Source: Deltaproteobacteria bacterium (GTDB lineage Bacteria > Desulfobacterota > Desulfomonilia > UBA1062). Taken from it: a stretch of 40,641 bases of DNA. Below, in pieces: positions 11,389 to 30,548 of the stretch. Both the position numbers and the translations under genes were made by a program. The notes beneath the pieces were generated by a model. That model was not told where the DNA came from. It did not search any database and was given only the letters and a program-made list of their open reading frames with translations. The stretch covers positions 1-40,641 of the forward strand of contig JAJFUP010000081.1 of assembly GCA_021372395.1 (NCBI GenBank), read 5' to 3'. Numbering within the stretch: position 1 is the first letter of the stretch; every line of letters starts with the position of its first letter.

Positions 11389-11676
11389 ATGACAGTGTCG
11401 CGTTCCCTAACCTTCGGTCTCATCTTGGTTATCGCGTTGCTGCTCGCCTTCACTCTTCCCGGGGAAAAGGGGCTCATTCGGGGGTATCAACTCCATCGCG
11501 AGCTCATCAAATTGCAGAATCAGAATACGGTCCTCGAACAGGAGAATGCCGGGCTCACGAGGGAGGCGACCATGATGAAAGACAACCTTGCATACATAGA
11601 GCATGTTATCGTCAAGGAGCTGAACCTGGTGAGACCTGGAGATACCATCGTGGTTTTCAAAAGGAAAAAGACTTGA
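11389..11676 (+). CDS. Septum formation initiator (FtsB/DivIC-like) protein
   Basis: The 95-residue protein has one N-terminal membrane helix (about residues 6-24) followed by a coiled coil rich in Leu, Gln, Asn and Glu (ELIKLQNQNTVLEQENAGL), then a conserved-type RPGDTIVVF end. This is the layout of FtsB/DivIC proteins, which join FtsL and FtsQ in the cell division complex. GGAG at 11384-11387 is only one base from ATG 11389 but seven from the in-frame GTG at 11395, so the true start may be two codons later. The gene ends 15 bases before pilM and probably shares its transcript, an arrangement that ties a division-type coiled-coil protein to the pilus operon. Confidence 0.8.
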   Translation: MTVSRSLTFGLILVIALLLAFTLPGEKGLIRGYQLHRELIKLQNQNTVLEQENAGLTREATMMKDNLAYIEHVIVKELNLVRPGDTIVVFKRKKT

Positions 11677-11691
11677 TCGCGGGGTGATGGG

Positions 11692-12747
11692 ATGCTTTTT
11701 GAGAAAAACTTACTGGGATTGGATATCGGCTCACAATCCATCAAGATGGTGGATATAGCCAAGACCCGGACCGGATATGAGCTCAAGGCGTTCGGCCTTG
11801 GCCTGATCCCTTCAGAGTGTATTGTTGACAAGGATATCATGGATTCTGAAACAGTGGTTGACACTGTCAAGAATCTCAGAGAAAACCTGAAAATCCGTTC
11901 CCGTGGCACCGCCTCGGCCATATCGGGCCACTCCGTGATCGTGAAAAAGGCTGAACTGCCCCTCATGAGCGAGGCAGAGCTCAGGCAGACGCTGCTCATC
12001 GAAGCGGAACAGTACATCCCCTTCGATATCAACGACGTCTACCTGGATTCCTTCATCCTGGGGGAAAGCCTCGAAAGATCGGACATGATGGATGTTCTCT
12101 TCGTGGCAGCCAAGAAAGAACTGGTGGACGATTATGCATCGGCTGTACGCAATGCAGGACTGAAGCCCATGCTCATGGACATCGACGTGTTCTCGATGGA
12201 GACCATGTACGAGGTGAATTATCCCGACGCGCCCGAATCCATCGTAGCACTCGTCAATGCAGGCGCATCCATGATCAACATCAATGTGCTCAAGGAAGGG
12301 ATGTCGATCTTTGCCCGCGATATTTCCATGGGCGGCCGCCAGCTCACGGAACGCATCCAGCGGGAATTCGGGGTGAGCTATGAGAGGGCGGAGAACATCA
12401 AGACCGGCGCCAACATCGAGGGCATAGACCTCGAGAAGATCAACTACATCTTCAAGATGGCGGCGGAGACCTATGTGCAGGAAATCAGGCGGACGCTCGA
12501 TTTCTTCCTCTCCACCATGGTGAACGAGAATATCGAGAAGATCTACCTGAGTGGCGGGTCAAGCAGAATACCGGGCCTCGTCAAGCTGCTCGAGAAACAG
12601 ATGGAGATCCCCGTGGAGAAGGTAAACCCGTTCAACAACATAAAATGGGACGATCGCGTGTTTGACCCGGAATATATGGCCTATATCGCACCACAGATGG
12701 CTGTGGCCGTGGGCCTTGCATTAAGGAGGGCCGATTATAAATGGTAA
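11692..12747 (+). CDS. pilM: Type IV pilus assembly protein PilM
   Basis: PilM is an actin-like ATPase that forms a cytoplasmic ring and binds the N-terminal tail of PilN. The 351-residue protein starts with LLGLDIGSQSIKMVDI, the phosphate-1 nucleotide-binding motif of actin-like folds. It contains QYIPFDINDVYLD, and its second phosphate motif IYLSGGSSRIPGL is near residue 285. GGGGTGATGGG directly before the ATG is a strong ribosome site. It overlaps pilN by 7 bases, the first of the tightly packed pilMNOPQ genes. Confidence 0.93.
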   Translation: MLFEKNLLGLDIGSQSIKMVDIAKTRTGYELKAFGLGLIPSECIVDKDIMDSETVVDTVKNLRENLKIRSRGTASAISGHSVIVKKAELPLMSEAELRQTLLIEAEQYIPFDINDVYLDSFILGESLERSDMMDVLFVAAKKELVDDYASAVRNAGLKPMLMDIDVFSMETMYEVNYPDAPESIVALVNAGASMININVLKEGMSIFARDISMGGRQLTERIQREFGVSYERAENIKTGANIEGIDLEKINYIFKMAAETYVQEIRRTLDFFLSTMVNENIEKIYLSGGSSRIPGLVKLLEKQMEIPVEKVNPFNNIKWDDRVFDPEYMAYIAPQMAVAVGLALRRADYKW

Positions 12748-24742: not shown

Positions 24743-24815
24743 GAGCCAGTAGCTCAGTTGGTAGAGCATCGGACTTTTAATCCGGTGGTCGAGGGTTCGA
24801 GTCCCTCCTGGCTCA
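24743..24815 (+). tRNA. tRNA-Lys (anticodon UUU)
   Basis: The acceptor arms GAGCCAG and CTGGCTC pair over 7 bases (24743-24749 with 24808-24814). The D arm GCTCAGTTGGTAGAGC is standard. The anticodon loop CTTTTAA carries TTT at 24776-24778. The T arm is GAGGG-TTCGAGT-CCCTC and the discriminator is A. CCA is not encoded. Confidence 0.97.
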
Positions 24816-24821
24816 CTGAAA

Positions 24822-24899
24822 GTCCCCATCGTCTAGCCTGGCCCAGGACACCGGCCTTTCACGCCGGCGACAGGGGTTCAAATCCCCTTGGGGACGCCA
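24822..24899 (+). tRNA. tRNA-Glu (anticodon UUC)
   Basis: GTCCCCA (24822-24828) pairs with TGGGGAC (24889-24895), followed by G and an encoded CCA (24897-24899). The anticodon stem CCGGC/GCCGG encloses CTTTCAC with anticodon TTC at 24858-24860. The T arm is AGGGG-TTCAAAT-CCCCT. It lies six bases after tRNA-Lys, so the two are probably one transcript. Confidence 0.97.
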
Positions 24900-24908
24900 A
24901 TTATTACC

Positions 24909-24938
24909 GGGGGTTACGATGTGAATCGTGCCCCTTTT
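24909..24938 (+). terminator. Terminator of the tRNA-Lys/tRNA-Glu transcript
   Basis: GGGG plus ACGAT pairs with ATCGT plus CCCC around a GTGA loop, with a one-base bulge, and TTTT follows directly. It starts ten bases after the encoded CCA of tRNA-Glu. Confidence 0.65.
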
Positions 24939-25117
24939 CCATTTCCGGCTGTCCAGTCCACCCATCTTCTCCCCAGCCTCTGCAGCGGGAATCATTCCAG
25001 CATGGCTGTTCAGTCTATGCCCGAGAGATACTCACATCAATCGGTGAGGTTATTGAGACAGGAGATAACATCGATACAGCCGGCAAAGGCAGAGACGGTG
25101 ACAATGCTTCAACCCCA

Positions 25118-25146
25118 TTGACAAGCCATTTCGTCTGCTGTATCTG
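25118..25146 (+). promoter_or_regulatory. Candidate promoter of the Tyr-rich repeat RiPP operon
   Basis: A perfect TTGACA (25118-25123) is followed after exactly 17 bases by TATCTG (25141-25146), a weak -10. The expected transcript start near 25153 leaves a leader of about 36 bases. The leader includes GGGaAGCA (25151-25158) able to pair with TGCTCCC (25170-25176), directly before the AAGAAGG ribosome site. Confidence 0.45.
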
Positions 25147-25188
25147 TTAAGGGAAGCAGCTTACGATCATGCTCCCAAGAAGGTTACT

Positions 25189-25623
25189 ATGACAGACCAG
25201 CCAAAAGACAACATCAAGAACGCAGATCAGACTGACAAGGCACCTGACGCACCCATTACCAGGAGAGATGCCATCAAGCGGATCTCCAAGGTGGTGATTG
25301 CCTCCGGTGCGGTGGCATCCATCCCCGGCCTGTTCGCATCAAAGGCCTCTGCCGAGGACACAGAGTACAGCAATTACTGCAATTACACCAACTATGCGGA
25401 CTACACCAATTATGCGAACCAGAAGTACGGGAACTACACTGCCTACGGCAACTACAAGAATGTCGCGAACTATGCAAACTACTATAACAAGGGCACGGGG
25501 AATTACCTGAACTATGCCAACTACACCAACTGGCAGGACTACATAAACTACACGAATTACGGGGATTACGCGAATTACACGAACTACACGAATTACGCGA
25601 ATTACGCGAACCACTGCAAGTAA
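25189..25623 (+). CDS. Tat-exported Asn-Tyr-x repeat protein, candidate RiPP precursor
   Basis: This 144-residue protein has two parts. Residues 1-55 are a long Tat signal: a charged start, TRRDAIKRISK with the Arg pair at 25-26, a hydrophobic stretch (VVIASGAVASIPGLFA) and a cleavage-like ASA at 53-55. Residues 56-144 consist almost wholly of Asn-Tyr-x triplets: 24 Tyr, 22 Asn and 23 [Tyr/Trp]-x-[Asn/Asp] motifs, 12 of them in unbroken register at 106-141. One repeat uses Trp (W115-Q-D117). Cys occur only at 64 and 143, near the ends of the repeat. AAGAAGG five bases before the ATG is a good ribosome site. Radical SAM genes follow immediately, so I infer a modified peptide substrate. A structural or adhesive surface protein is the alternative. 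I know of no named family with this repeat. Confidence 0.8.
   Translation: MTDQPKDNIKNADQTDKAPDAPITRRDAIKRISKVVIASGAVASIPGLFASKASAEDTEYSNYCNYTNYADYTNYANQKYGNYTAYGNYKNVANYANYYNKGTGNYLNYANYTNWQDYINYTNYGDYANYTNYTNYANYANHCK
25356..25620 (+). repeat. Degenerate 9-base tandem repeat encoding Asn-Tyr-Ala/Thr
   Basis: The unit is roughly AAYTAYRCS, read as Asn-Tyr-(Ala/Thr). It is repeated with synonymous variation throughout the 3' two-thirds of the gene. The tightest run is 25506-25612. Third-position differences (AAC/AAT, TAC/TAT) between units show that the protein sequence, not the DNA, is being conserved. Confidence 0.85.
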
Positions 25624-25666
25624 CAAACCGGTTATGGAACACCTTTCCTGGTAAGCCTGGCATACC

Positions 25667-26665
25667 ATGGCGAATTTGCTGCTGACCACGAGATGTGTCC
25701 GTTCCTGTCCGTACTGCTTTGCCAAGAACGAGATGGCCGAGTCCGATCCGAATGATACCGTGTCGTGGGAGAACATCGTATACCTGGCAGACTTTCTCAT
25801 ACAGTCCGATGATCGCCACCTCGCACTGCTGGGTGGAGAGCCGACGCTCCATCCGCAGTTCGTTGATATCGTGCTCTACCTGCTCCAGAGGGGGCTCCAC
25901 GTCACCATCTTCACCAGCGGTGTGATGTCTGGCGAGCGGCTCGGGGAACTCGAGCGCCACCTCACGCAGATCTCCCCGGACAGGATCCAGTTCGTGTGCA
26001 ATCTCAACAATCCGGAACAAACTCCAGCGCCAGGAGGTGAACATGAGAAGCTGCACCGGTTCCTCACCACCCTGGGCCCCTGGACAACGCCGGGATTCAA
26101 CATCTACAGAACGGATTTCGACCTCGCCTTCATCTTCGAGTACATCTCCCGCTTCGGGATGCAGGGGCAGTTGCGTCTCGGCCTCGCGAGCCCCATCGCC
26201 AGGCAGGACAACCTGTACATCGGCAAGCAGGACATGAAAGGCGTCATCGACAGGCTCTACGGTTTCCGGCATCTCTTCGAGAGGTTCAGGGTGAGACCCA
26301 ACCTCGACTGCGGGTTCCCGCTCTGCTTCTTCTCGGACGAGCAGCTCGGGTGGTTCTTCCGCATGACGGGCACGGTGAACTTCGGCTGCGGGCCGGCCAT
26401 CGACATAAAGCCCAACATGGATGTGTACAGCTGTTTCCCTCTTTCCACCATCCACAAGAGGTCGCTCTATGAGTTCAACTCCATCCAGGAGGTCGCTGCC
26501 TTCTACATCGGCCTTCACGACCAGATACGCCAGGATTTCCCCGGTGCGTTCGAGGAGTGCGTCCCCTGCATCTTCCGGAACGAGAACCGCTGCTCCGGTG
26601 GTGGCGTATGCCACATACTGAGACAGGTTGCCGATGAAACCGCCGATCCTCGTCTGTCCGTATAA
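25667..26665 (+). CDS. Radical SAM/SPASM-like peptide maturase
   Basis: This 332-residue protein starts MANLLLTTRCVRSCPYCFAKNEM, with the cluster motif C10-x3-C14-x2-C17. LLGGEPTLHP (GGEP at about 56-59) is the SAM-binding turn of radical SAM enzymes. The C-terminal third has extra cysteines (NLDCGFPLC, FGCGP, VYSCFP and then C298, C301, C309, C315), a SPASM-like pattern that in peptide maturases binds auxiliary iron-sulphur clusters. It lies 43 bases after the repeat-protein gene, which suggests that protein is its substrate. It overlaps the next gene by 32 bases. The ribosome site is weak, so translation may depend on the upstream gene. The chemistry is not shown by sequence; cross-linking of the Tyr-x-Asn repeats is inferred. 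Confidence 0.85.
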   Translation: MANLLLTTRCVRSCPYCFAKNEMAESDPNDTVSWENIVYLADFLIQSDDRHLALLGGEPTLHPQFVDIVLYLLQRGLHVTIFTSGVMSGERLGELERHLTQISPDRIQFVCNLNNPEQTPAPGGEHEKLHRFLTTLGPWTTPGFNIYRTDFDLAFIFEYISRFGMQGQLRLGLASPIARQDNLYIGKQDMKGVIDRLYGFRHLFERFRVRPNLDCGFPLCFFSDEQLGWFFRMTGTVNFGCGPAIDIKPNMDVYSCFPLSTIHKRSLYEFNSIQEVAAFYIGLHDQIRQDFPGAFEECVPCIFRNENRCSGGGVCHILRQVADETADPRLSV

Positions 26666-27500
26666 TCGTTTGCTGCTCGATCAGATCGGCGGTCATGATA
26701 TCGTCGTCAGGGTCGAGAACCCCCCGGACATCCCCCGGGCAGCCGAAGATGTCCGATGCTCGGGCAAGGCCCTGCACAGCGTCATCATCGAGACCCGGCA
26801 GCCGCTGAGCGCTTTCCGCCCCCAGGACGACTGGGTCGGCATCCCCATCGCATTGTTCGTGCCCGGGATGGGCAACTTCCGGGATGTCGCCCCCTGGGTC
26901 GGAAGCATCCGGGACCTCAAGATGCACGTGTACCTGTCTGCCGGCGACAGGGAAAACCTCACCAGTTGCCGTGTTCTTGCATCCCTGGGAGTCACCTGCT
27001 GTCTCGTCTTCGACACCACGGAGCCGGATTGGGAGGCCCTTTCGGATCTTATGACCTGGGCCGTCTTCGCTCCCTCCTCCCATGCCCCCGTCGAACCTTT
27101 CCATCACGTTGCCGTCCATCACAATCCCGGCGCCTACGTTGATTGGGGAGTGGTCTATTTCGATGGGCCGGGGGCCTTTCTCCATCTGGATTCGGCCGGC
27201 CGGGTGGCCCTGTCTCACCGGGAGCTTCAAAACGGCTCGTTCATCACGGAACATGTGTCCCTGCTGGGCGATCCCTTCGAGAACGAGGGATATCGAAACG
27301 CCTTGAACGCCTGGCGGCACTATTTTCTGAGTGATCATCCCTGCATCGCGTGCGAGGGATGGAAGATCTGCATGGGAAGATTCGGCATGAACGGGAGGCA
27401 TGCCCCGGGATGCCGGGCCTTTGCTTCAGACATGTTGGCCGAGATAGAACAATACAAAGGCCGGCAGCAGGAAGAACAGGCAGAGAGGGCACCTTCATGA
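26634..27500 (+). CDS. Radical-SAM-like protein without the SAM-cluster motif, SPASM-like tail
   Basis: The 288-residue protein has no CxxxCxxC motif, but its last 75 residues resemble a SPASM region: HLDSAGRVAL, VSLLGDPFENEGYRNALNAWRHYFL, and then CIACEGWKICMGRF and a final GC. The first 200 residues show alternating beta and alpha segments, like a degenerate barrel (VVRVENPPD, SVIIETRQPL, MHVYLSAGDRENL, CCLVFDTTEPDW). I infer a non-catalytic partner of the two radical SAM enzymes, perhaps for substrate recognition. Homology to a known family is not certain. ATG 26634 has AGACAGG seven bases before it; TTG 26628 is an alternative. Its stop overlaps the next ATG (ATGA at 27497-27500). Confidence 0.65.
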   Translation: MKPPILVCPYNRLLLDQIGGHDIVVRVENPPDIPRAAEDVRCSGKALHSVIIETRQPLSAFRPQDDWVGIPIALFVPGMGNFRDVAPWVGSIRDLKMHVYLSAGDRENLTSCRVLASLGVTCCLVFDTTEPDWEALSDLMTWAVFAPSSHAPVEPFHHVAVHHNPGAYVDWGVVYFDGPGAFLHLDSAGRVALSHRELQNGSFITEHVSLLGDPFENEGYRNALNAWRHYFLSDHPCIACEGWKICMGRFGMNGRHAPGCRAFASDMLAEIEQYKGRQQEEQAERAPS

Positions 27501-29563
27501 AAACCATCATCTTCAAGGCAACCGACCTGTGCAATTCCAACTGCATCTATTGCCACGCGATCAGAAAAGACCCGCACGCCATAAAGACGATGCCCCTGGA
27601 CATTCTCGAGCAGTTCTTTGCGAGAGCGAACGCCTTTCTCATGGAACAGCCCGAAGAGACCCTGAAGATCATCTGGCACGGCGGGGAGCCGCTGATGCTC
27701 GGACCCGATTATTTCTCCCGGGCACTGGAGTTCAAGGAGGATCTCTGCAGGGACACAGGTTCGCGCATATCCTTCGACATGCAGAGCAACCTCACCCTGT
27801 TCTCCCGGGAGTATGTGGATGTCTTCCAGCGGATGGGAATCAGGACCATAGGCACCAGTTTCGAGCTGCTGCCCGGGGTCCGGGGACGTGGAGGCAAGGA
27901 AGGCTCGGATATCTACAACCGGCAGTTCATTCGGGCAGTCTCGTTGCTGGAGCATGAAGGGCTCTCGTGGGGGATCATCTATGTGGTGACCAGGCCCTCG
28001 CTGAAAAACCCCCTCGAACTGTTCCGCACCCTGACCAACTTCGTCCCCTCCTCCTCGGTCATGTTCAACCCCGTCACCTTTCACAAGGCAGGGCCCGACC
28101 AGATAGCCATATCCCCTGAGGAATTCGTGGATTTCCTCGGCGAGATCTTTCCCGAGTGGTGGTGCAAACGGGAGAGGTATCAAGGTGTAGACCCCTTCCA
28201 TTCCCTGACAGACAACCTCATGAAAGGCGGCGAGTCGCTCTTGTGCGTCGACTCGGGCAGATGCGCCGACACGCATCTCTGCGTGAGCCCAGACGGCATG
28301 GCCTGGCAGTGCGGGAGATCCGCCGACTGGGACCTGATGAGGTATGGATCGATCGTGGATCTTTCCCTCAAGGAGATCCTGGAACACCCTGACAAGGAGA
28401 TGCTGAGAACGAGACCCCGGGTATTGAAAGACGGCGAGTGCAGCGGCTGCCGTTTCTGGGACATCTGCCACGGCGGTTGCCCGCTGGATGCCCTTGCAGA
28501 GACCGGGTCCATCATGCATAAATCCCCGTGGTGCGGGACGAAGAAAGGGTTCATCGAAAAGTATTTCGAGCCCATCACGGGCTTCAGGTACCCATCGCCT
28601 GTCCTGCAGTATGGAGAACCGGGAACCGGACACAACGAGGCAACCGCCGTGCCCTCTGTCGCGTCATGTCCCCCGGGCTGCTCCACCGGAATACGCACGC
28701 AGGATGATGCGCCATGGATAGGGCCCGTCGAATGCATGGACGATGCCTTGATGGTATCCGGGATATTGAACCAGCTTGTCGAAGAAAACCCTTCGAAGAG
28801 ATTCAACCTGGTTTTCAGAGCGAGCTACCGGGAGATCTTTCAGGGGCACCCCGCCATCTCTGAATTCGGCCTGCCGCCCCAGGGAACAACACCGATCCGC
28901 TTGAGCTGCCGCAGCAATGGGGATATTCCCTCTCCTTCCACGAGCGCCTACCAGCTTCTGGCCGGCCTGCTCGGGTTGAAAACTCCTGCAGCAGAAGAGC
29001 TTTTTGTTCCCTGGAAGTTCGAGGATGATCCATCTCTCCTCGAATCCATCCCGTGGAGAAAGCCCAATATCCTCATCTGTCCCTTCTCCGAAACACCAAG
29101 AACGCGGATTGATATCCGTACATGGGAAGAGCTTGCGGCGAGACTGATCGTCGATGGTTTCGGTGTCATGCAGCTGGCAAACATGCGGCAGCCTCATATA
29201 CGTGGCGCCTACAGCATACGCGGGCTGCTCGATGTGAGACGGATGATATCTTTCGTGCGTCACTTCGATCTGGTCATCACATCGAACAATATGTTCATGC
29301 ACATTGCCCGACTCCACGAGATACCTGCCCTCGTGCTGTGGGGACCGAGCGATCACGGCTTCTACGGCTATACCGGCCACTCCCATCTTCAGGGCAAGAG
29401 GACATGCGCGAATGCAGGAGGCTGCATCGGGCCCCTGACGGATGGCCGCCTCTCCTCCCCATGTCCCATGGGGGATGATCACTGCATGAACACATTGAAA
29501 GCAGAAGCGATCTATCAGGCTGCCCTTGAAATAGCCGGGACGCCGACCTCTTCAGGAAGGTGA
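27497..29563 (+). CDS. Fusion: radical SAM/SPASM maturase with C-terminal GT9 glycosyltransferase domain
   Basis: The 688-residue protein joins two enzymes. Residues 1-360 are radical SAM/SPASM: C12-x3-C16-x2-C19 in DLCNSNCIYCHA, GGEP at 62-65, and a C-terminal cysteine set (LLCVDSGRC, HLCVSPDG, WQCGRSAD, ECSGCRFWDICHGGCPLDAL, PWCGTK). Residues about 405-685 resemble GT9 heptosyltransferases: MDDALMVSGILNQLVEENP at the N-lobe, then a C-lobe with DLVITSNNMFMHIARLHEIPALVLWGPSD. In GT9 proteins the usual SnD position before the HxA motif is Asp; here it is Asn. The ATG at 27497 overlaps the previous stop, with GAGAGGG upstream; a frame opening at 27350 is an unlikely start. I infer modification plus glycosylation of the repeat peptide. 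Confidence 0.82.
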   Translation: MKTIIFKATDLCNSNCIYCHAIRKDPHAIKTMPLDILEQFFARANAFLMEQPEETLKIIWHGGEPLMLGPDYFSRALEFKEDLCRDTGSRISFDMQSNLTLFSREYVDVFQRMGIRTIGTSFELLPGVRGRGGKEGSDIYNRQFIRAVSLLEHEGLSWGIIYVVTRPSLKNPLELFRTLTNFVPSSSVMFNPVTFHKAGPDQIAISPEEFVDFLGEIFPEWWCKRERYQGVDPFHSLTDNLMKGGESLLCVDSGRCADTHLCVSPDGMAWQCGRSADWDLMRYGSIVDLSLKEILEHPDKEMLRTRPRVLKDGECSGCRFWDICHGGCPLDALAETGSIMHKSPWCGTKKGFIEKYFEPITGFRYPSPVLQYGEPGTGHNEATAVPSVASCPPGCSTGIRTQDDAPWIGPVECMDDALMVSGILNQLVEENPSKRFNLVFRASYREIFQGHPAISEFGLPPQGTTPIRLSCRSNGDIPSPSTSAYQLLAGLLGLKTPAAEELFVPWKFEDDPSLLESIPWRKPNILICPFSETPRTRIDIRTWEELAARLIVDGFGVMQLANMRQPHIRGAYSIRGLLDVRRMISFVRHFDLVITSNNMFMHIARLHEIPALVLWGPSDHGFYGYTGHSHLQGKRTCANAGGCIGPLTDGRLSSPCPMGDDHCMNTLKAEAIYQAALEIAGTPTSSGR

Positions 29564-29577
29564 TCCCTTTCCGGTCT
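29542..29577. terminator. Hairpin between convergent genes
   Basis: GACC...GGAAGG pairs imperfectly with CCCTTTCC...GGTC around the stop codon of the fusion gene, 14 bases before the convergent response-regulator stop. It could serve both strands, but no strong T-run is present. Confidence 0.35.
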
Positions 29578-30548
29578 CAGTTGCCGCGTCCGGCACTCTC
29601 GAGGTCACCGCTCGCGACGATGGATGAAAAGCATTCCACGAGCTTCGGATCAAGCACGTTTTCTTTCATGGATATGAGCATTTCCAGGGCCAGCTCCGGG
29701 GTATATGCCTTCCGGTAAGGCCGCTCGGTGGTCAGGGCATCATAAATGTCAGCCACGCTGACAATCCTGGCCTCGAGGGGTATCTCTTCTGCCTGCAGAC
29801 CCGATGGATACCCTTTCCCGTCATACCGCTCATGGTGTGAAAGGATGATATTCACGATCATGTCGGAGAGCCTGGCCTTCCTGGCTACATCAGCCCCCCA
29901 CAGGGGATGGTTCCTGATGATATGGATATCGGCTTCATCGAGCGGCCCCTCGTTATTGAGGATGTTTTCCGAGACGCCGATCTTTCCGCAGTCATGGAGC
30001 CAACTCCCATAGCGAATGGCCTTCAACTCATCTTCATCCAAGCCGAGATGACGTGCGATCAACAGCGCATATCGCGCAACACGCTCGGAATGTCCCCTGG
30101 TGTAGGGATCCTTGAGCTCGAGGGCATGAACCAGGGAACGCATGGTATTCTCGTCCCCTCGGATTATGGACTTGATGAGCCGGTATCGTTTCAGGGCATC
30201 CTCGACAAGACCCACGAGCTGGGTGTTCTCCCACGGTTTCACGATGAAGCGGAAGACCTCCACCCTGTTGATGGCCTCAAGTGCCGTCTCAAGGTCGGCA
30301 AACCCGGTCATCAGGATCTTCACCGTTTCCGGAGAGAGGGCCTTGACCCGGGAAAGGAGATCGATCCCCCTCATGCCGGGCATATGGTTGTCGGAAACCA
30401 GGACGGCAATCTCATGCGTACGCACTACATCGAGCGCCTCGGCGGCATTTCTTGCCGTGAGGATTTCTATACCGCTCTCCATGAAGATCTGTGAGGCGAT
30501 TTCGAGGATGTACTCTTCATCATCAACGAACAGGATCTCTTCAGCCAT
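29577..30548 (-). CDS. Response regulator with HD-GYP output domain
   Basis: The 323-residue protein has an N-terminal receiver domain (residues 1-120). It has acidic pocket DDEE near 9-12, the phosphoacceptor Asp at 53 in VSDNHMPG and Lys in IVKPW. A C-terminal HD-GYP domain follows: HALELKDPYTRGHSERVARYA, the metal-binding HDCGKIG, HHERYDGKGYPSGL and VADIYDALTTERPYR. HD-GYP domains hydrolyse cyclic di-GMP, so the protein probably lowers c-di-GMP in response to a sensor kinase. No kinase is adjacent. c-di-GMP often controls pili, and pilBTC begins 1 kb away on the other strand, but the link is inference. Confidence 0.93.
   Translation of the reverse strand: MAEEILFVDDEEYILEIASQIFMESGIEILTARNAAEALDVVRTHEIAVLVSDNHMPGMRGIDLLSRVKALSPETVKILMTGFADLETALEAINRVEVFRFIVKPWENTQLVGLVEDALKRYRLIKSIIRGDENTMRSLVHALELKDPYTRGHSERVARYALLIARHLGLDEDELKAIRYGSWLHDCGKIGVSENILNNEGPLDEADIHIIRNHPLWGADVARKARLSDMIVNIILSHHERYDGKGYPSGLQAEEIPLEARIVSVADIYDALTTERPYRKAYTPELALEMLISMKENVLDPKLVECFSSIVASGDLESAGRGN

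Follow-up and report, generated by a model that had tools for sequence, protein, structure and literature searches.

A recurrent operon encoding a Tat-type tyrosine-repeat protein and a predicted radical SAM cross-linking machinery

What is made by four adjacent genes that encode a short tyrosine-rich protein with a twin-arginine translocation (Tat)-type leader, two radical S-adenosylmethionine (SAM) enzymes and a third protein that resembles such enzymes? The genes, here called A to D, lie in a 40,641-nucleotide stretch of DNA (the window) from a Deltaproteobacteria bacterium (Desulfobacterota; Desulfomonilia; UBA1062; assembly GCA_021372395.1, contig JAJFUP010000081.1). A encodes the repeat protein, B and D the radical SAM enzymes, with D fused to a glycosyltransferase family 9 (GT9)-type domain, and C the putative partner. 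An earlier note made from the sequence had proposed an undescribed radical-SAM-modified secreted repeat system at this place. We find that the operon is a real, recurrent system, and we hold both its recurrence and a motif rule in the repeats with high confidence. Our best reading is that it belongs to a new branch of cyclophane-type modification by radical SAM enzymes in which entire exported repeat proteins are the substrates; the chemistry is a prediction.

With an alignment of B as the query, 34 loci were recovered among ~85,000 species genomes, in about ten phyla; a B search within the phylum found 10 of 395 genomes, and C alone as the query led to the same gene set in two related genomes. 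The hosts were Desulfobacterota/Syntrophaceae, Zymogenus, Bacteroidota, Chlorobi, Ignavibacteria, Nitrospirota, Nitrospinota, Elusimicrobia, Spirochaetes, Gemmatimonadetes and one Gammaproteobacterium, and many carriers are anaerobic bacteria, gut and rumen Bacteroidales included. Genes were ordered either A-B-C-D-(GT9) or B-C-D-(GT9)-A. An A-like gene, with Tat-type leader and Tyr-rich repeat, stood alongside B, C and D in 30 of 31 main-clade loci, counting one whose A is cut by a contig end (L019); in the exception (L021), the contig ends 148 bp after D. Because loci were picked by B only, this association is free of a selection effect.

The earlier note had named recurrence in several lineages as its check, which the search through B alone bore out, and had seen repeat proteins without enzyme genes, or the enzymes beside unrelated substrates, as arguments against its proposal. 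Both were looked for: there was no orphan repeat protein in 390 genomes of the phylum, and no unrelated substrate beside the enzymes among the 31 complete enzyme sets. The fifth hit, G158, was rejected as an orphan A (weak match, E 1e-4, over 40 residues of a frame interrupted by stops). An automatic filter for RR plus Tyr-rich sequence had 31 hits in the 258 kb around operons and 0 in 306 kb outside them. Slippage can yield low-complexity repeats, and A could on that account be an unmodified structural protein exported by Tat while B to D act on another target, e.g. a small molecule or glycan; but this is very improbable given the linkage of A to loci found by B alone, the lack of filter hits elsewhere, the absence of orphans and the codon-level conservation described below.

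The B tree is patchy by phylum, and several phyla need more than one change. Distance matrices of B, C, D and GT9 co-vary (r 0.74–0.82), which argues that the enzyme set travels together. No relatives of C were found in viral contigs, and a PHROGs search returned no match. One Bacteroidales homologue of B (L038:1739-2746) had no C, D or A recognised nearby and is possibly a decayed or reassigned copy.

The mature part of the window's A (86 amino acids (aa), with 24 Tyr) contains 23 aromatic-x-N/D motifs and is encoded by a 9-bp tandem array (TRF) in which Tyr and Asn codons are mixed (TAC/TAT, AAC/AAT), so the repeat is kept at the protein level. The expectation that the system always includes an NY-x repeat did not hold. 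NYx occurs in the window, L009 and L040, and A homologues have periods of 3, 4, 5 and more, with YxS, YxR and YxD versions, so NY-x was rejected as the defining feature and is a lineage-specific form of a general rule, Y-x-X3 with X3 being N, S, D or R. Other forms are YNYxRYSRSY in L007, YYYNYGD in L053, YxS with period 4 in L013, L015, L017 and L041, YSN/YSD with period 5 in L035, YSYSDYYNYYN in L033 and LQYFSYSS in L012. Averaged over 22 repeat groups, N/S/D/R made up 0.80 of the non-Tyr residues at +2 of Tyr compared to 0.63 after shuffling (0 of 2000 shuffles reached 0.80), with no excess at +1 or +3 and a smaller excess at −1, as expected for period 3. In period-4 repeats the share was 0.88 at +2 and 0.23 at −1, and −1 Asn was rejected as a conserved position on this basis. 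Tyr was at times substituted (W-Q-D, W-R-D, H-K-D, H-N-D, F-Y-S, F-Y-R). Synonymous/non-synonymous codon changes between the window and L009, a 62–74% relative of the window's operon, numbered 10/0 at Tyr, 6/1 at +2 and 8/7 at +1, indicating that Tyr and +2 are under conservation while +1 varies. The A protein of a Chlorobiaceae locus (L037:6615-7586) has a Tyr/Ser repeat followed by a globular-looking C-terminal domain, so larger proteins can contain the repeat as a module.

Triceptides are bonded from residue i to i+2, with the donor-acceptor pairs Trp-Arg/Asn/Asp, Phe-Asn/Ser, Tyr-Asp/Arg and His-Ala/Arg; N, R, D, S and A are experimentally known acceptors, and for Asp and Arg the known donors include Tyr (PMC11002830). 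Precursors with many cyclophane motifs have been proposed earlier (PMC9062424). The cyclophane reading draws mainly on the match between the +2 residues of A and these acceptors, which was not used as a search criterion.

The radical SAM part of D has CX3CX2C (C12, C16 and C19) and eight further conserved Cys, corresponding to two auxiliary clusters, passes the TIGR04085 cut-off and matches PF04055; B likewise has PF04055 and CX3CX2C, confirming that two radical SAM proteins are present. As in triceptide systems, the predicted maturase, D, is a radical SAM/SPASM enzyme, and all its auxiliary Cys are conserved. All 34 D proteins match the DynA, sulfatase maturase, DarE, AmcB and YhhB models, and 33 match GrrM/OscB. 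The window's D is below the cut-offs of DynA (140.7/450 bits) and DarE (109.3/650), of the cyclophane formers AmcB (87/425), YhhB (71/445), GrrM (67/310) and FxsB (63/370), and of the sulfatase maturase model TIGR03942 (134/349). By sequence, D is related, below cut-off, to the makers of darobactin, dynobactin and cyclophanes. Two operons carry two tandem D copies each (L013:9865-12118 and L017:7949-9821), a hint that more than a single step acts on Tyr.

The top scores of D are those with DynA and DarE, relatives of which form C-O, C-N and C-C bonds, and Tyr is the one constant residue. Both points would suit a Tyr-centred change that leads to a product other than a triceptide, such as an ether (Tyr-O to C-beta as in daropeptides), Tyr hydroxylation or Tyr-Tyr coupling. 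Such a change does not by itself explain the restriction of +2 to N/D/S/R across periods, however, and we regard it as unlikely while granting it a real chance. It is improbable that D acts like a sulfatase maturase, turning Ser or another residue of the repeat into an aldehyde-type residue by side-chain oxidation and forming no cross-links. Its best solved-structure match is anSME 4k36 (1.7e-37, full length, PDB profile search), which together with the TIGR03942 score and the many Ser-rich A repeats would favour this activity, but the invariant residue is Tyr and not Ser/Cys, NYx repeats are nearly without Ser, and A has none of the sulfatase motif, C/S-x-P/A-x-R.

B is itself a second radical SAM/SPASM-type enzyme, with a C10-x3-C14-x2-C17 triad and conserved C215, C220, C241, C256, C298, C301 and C309. 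Its homologues have CX3CX2C and 7–8 further conserved, SPASM-like Cys, and similarity to viperin, MoaA and PqqE is weak and local. C of the window matches no Pfam or NCBIfam family and hence no curated pseudo-radical-SAM model. The sole PDB match below 0.001 to its AlphaFold2 (AF2) model (predicted local distance difference test, pLDDT, 92.5) was SuiB 5v1s (E 5.7e-4), followed by CteB 5why (1.8e-3); SuiB is a C-C cross-linking enzyme. The modelled fold suggests that C is a pseudo-radical-SAM partner with a degenerate SuiB-like fold. It lacks the radical SAM triad CX3CX2C (none conserved in 29 homologues) and the first auxiliary set, in agreement with its first description as a clusterless partner, but that description went too far, as a CX2CX5C...C auxiliary set (C237, C240, C246, C260) is kept in 27–29 of 29 homologues. 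Mean distance was 0.71 for C vs. 0.50–0.53 for B and D, and this faster divergence would fit a partner that tracks a changing substrate.

Several observations weigh against cyclophane formation. L011 departs from the +2 rule (0.30), L056 and L024 follow it weakly (about 0.5), and a triplet repeat puts one and the same residue at −1 and +2. D reaches none of the curated equivalog cut-offs and scores as well with sulfatase maturases as with cross-linkers (134 vs. 141 bits). The presence of a partner and two radical SAM enzymes suggests two or more different modifications, such that a cyclophane may not be alone. Considering both sides, we think it rather probable that the product of the operon is an exported repeat protein made rigid after translation by cyclophane-type cross-links.

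The leader of A contains ITRRDAIKR followed by a hydrophobic stretch and an AxA-type site, with cleavage predicted after A55. RR-[DE]-A-[LI]-K-R was found in A of nearly all loci, as was the twin-Arg motif followed by a hydrophobic stretch that characterises Tat substrates. In the exceptions, L027 and L035, the Arg pair is gone yet a similar A-x-K-R stretch is retained, so the leader stretch may double as an enzyme recognition site. Export through Tat, as claimed in the earlier note, is assigned because of the conserved RR motif and the tat genes that adjoin other loci (Pfam; tatA and tatC after A in L031, tatC after A in L028 and L036), although the window's A scores 12.2 bits with the Tat model TIGR01409, below its 16.7 cut-off. 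TatC is encoded in the window's own genome. A Cys follows the hydrophobic stretch in A of L015, L017, L025, L026, L041 and others (by eye), and several A proteins are apparently Tat lipoproteins. Tat export would suit a chain that had become stiff before leaving the cytoplasm. In L028, an open reading frame (ORF; L028:12212-13912) adjacent to the A gene and tatC (11483-12205) starts with 45 TatA/B-like residues and runs on into a radical SAM protein. It may be a fusion of a Tat component with a radical SAM protein; Pfam detects the radical SAM part alone.

The GT9 fusion noted at the outset is present in the window but local to some Desulfobacterota: four Desulfobacterota loci have GT9 fused to D and about fifteen loci have it as a separate gene, while about ten, the close relative L040 among them, lack it, for which reason it was rejected as a core part. 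The AF2 fold of the window's GT9 part matches 3tov, TibC 4rap and WaaF 1psw alike (~1e-8, Foldseek). Four Cys after a W-G-P motif are conserved in 17–18 of 18 (spacing CX5C-x12-C-x6-C); in TibC, four Cys in a comparable stretch bind iron and are needed to glycosylate protein (PMC4358343). The protein heptosyltransferase model TIGR04414 had no match in the window and, among scanned members, matched L014 alone (14/200 bits). GT9 may glycosylate A.

We propose that the Tat-type leader of A would be recognised in the cytoplasm, probably through C, and that D with B would abstract H atoms and join each Tyr (occasionally Trp, His or Phe) to the N/D/S/R at +2, so that three-residue cyclophanes, or the ether analogue, would follow one another along the repeat. 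Where GT9 is present, that domain would then add a sugar to the A protein. The modified chain, no longer Sec-compatible, would leave via Tat and remain in the envelope; in several lineages it is apparently a lipoprotein. The type of bond, the division of labour among B, C and D and the sugar acceptor are as we infer them, and a role for A as an envelope rod or sheath component is a guess. More tentatively, and with slightly less than even confidence, these loci may form an as yet undescribed class across phyla that makes protein-scale cyclophane polymers: repeat proteins exported by Tat, some of them lipid-anchored, with a Tyr to +2 cross-link in every triplet to quintet. Two radical SAM enzymes would build these links together with a pseudo-enzyme, a sugar would be added in some cases, and the product would serve as a rigid envelope component, not as a small antibiotic.

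In the window, A to D share one strand, with overlaps of 32–38 bp between B and C and 4 bp between C and D (ATGA), which bears out the coordinates and the overlaps among the last three genes given in the earlier note (Table 1). The promoter it had placed in front was not recovered: a promoter/terminator scan detected no sigma-70-like promoter upstream of A, and scores were no better than those of shuffles. The operon here is a 4.7 kb accessory insertion beside tRNA-Glu. In four congeners, tRNA-Lys and tRNA-Glu are directly followed by an HD-GYP gene, with ~105 bp between tRNA-Glu and the conserved part of that gene in three of the four, while 4.7 kb lies between them in the window. No duplicated tRNA 3' end was detected at the far side of the cassette, and thus no integrase-type att pair.

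Table 1 Features of the operon and its surroundings in the window.
Feature	Coordinates	Strand	Description
tRNA-Lys and tRNA-Glu	24743-24899	+	left border of accessory cassette; ARAGORN
Accessory cassette, 4.7 kb	24900-29622	.	without counterpart at corresponding place in four same-genus genomes
Gene A	25189-25623	+	144 aa
Gene A leader	25189-25353	+	Tat-type signal; T-R-R-D-A-I-K-R at aa 24-31; RR codons 25261-25266
Gene A mature part	25354-25623	+	tandem N-Y-x repeat, 23 [Y/W]-x-[N/D] motifs
Gene B	25667-26665	+	radical SAM enzyme, SPASM-like; PF04055 2e-13
Gene C	26634-27500 (ATG) or from in-frame TTG at 26628	+	predicted pseudo-radical-SAM/SPASM partner
Gene D, whole	27497-29563	+	radical SAM/SPASM + GT9-type fusion
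Gene D N-terminal part	27497-28606	+	radical SAM/SPASM, two complete auxiliary-cluster Cys sets
Gene D C-terminal part	28691-29563	+	GT9-type glycosyltransferase; PF01075 3.5e-5

L055 and L056, on an outer branch, carry divergent B-D-C sets. The Tat-like protein of L056 contains YTNYGAYTNYGA and YVNYGKY; two tandem GT9 genes lie beside the set of L055 (L055:10227-12299), where no Tyr-rich precursor was recognised. A distant relative system on the minus strand of L008 (L008:4926-9718) encodes a D-like radical SAM/SPASM enzyme, a C-like partner, a double radical SAM protein and a Tat-like protein that ends RVWGNRGRVWGNR, again aromatic-x-Asn. More distant B-like radical SAM proteins (L058:1323-8795, L057:2443-3429) stand beside PqqD-like and lasso-B-like ORFs, and these two, as judged by eye, are other loci of the ribosomally synthesized and post-translationally modified peptide (RiPP) type that share the B fold.

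If our reading is true, radical SAM cross-linking builds long exported proteins in about ten phyla, beyond short peptide natural products. The system's natural substrates carry up to dozens of motifs and several acceptor types. With it one could ask why cross-linked chains would need Tat, and pseudo-radical-SAM partners could be studied in a clean setting; radical SAM modification may here also be tied to protein glycosylation. The gene set is apparently unnamed, with no curated family among those searched describing it. None of the openly available papers searched for Tat, tyrosine-rich or NYx radical SAM systems describes it; a 2022 triceptide landscape in the Journal of the American Chemical Society, outside that scope, may list part of the family.

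Among known systems, pseudo-radical-SAM partners (IPR026418, TIGR04347) resemble C in their degenerate radical SAM fold and in having genes for radical SAM enzymes and a precursor as neighbours (PMC10352776), whereas C of the window falls outside all NCBIfam and Pfam families. TibC and the BAHT protein O-heptosyltransferases share the GT9 fold and four conserved Cys after W-G-P, but the TibC spacing is CX2C-x15-C-x11-C and differs from that found here, and the window's GT9 is equally close by fold to lipopolysaccharide heptosyltransferases. The darobactin and dynobactin maturases DarE and DynA give D its top NCBIfam scores among cross-linking enzymes, with full-length alignment, yet D remains far under their cut-offs; darobactin and dynobactin derive from short antibiotic precursor peptides, whereas A is a long Tyr-repeat protein with a Tat-type leader. 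The proposal of an undescribed system stands in so far as the set recurs and passes no NCBIfam equivalog cut-off, but its motif resembles that of triceptides, a class missing from the list with which it had first been compared. Triceptide systems (XncB, OscB/GrrM, MscB, YxdB, HaaB, YhhB), whose cross-links run from an aryl carbon to C-beta, likewise combine a SPASM radical SAM maturase with tandem aromatic-x-X3 motifs in which X3 is N, D, R or S. They have one radical SAM enzyme where this system has two and a predicted pseudo-enzyme, and they differ from it in its Tat leader, its up to dozens of motifs in a 90–250 aa protein, its optional GT9 and enzymes that lie under all curated cut-offs.

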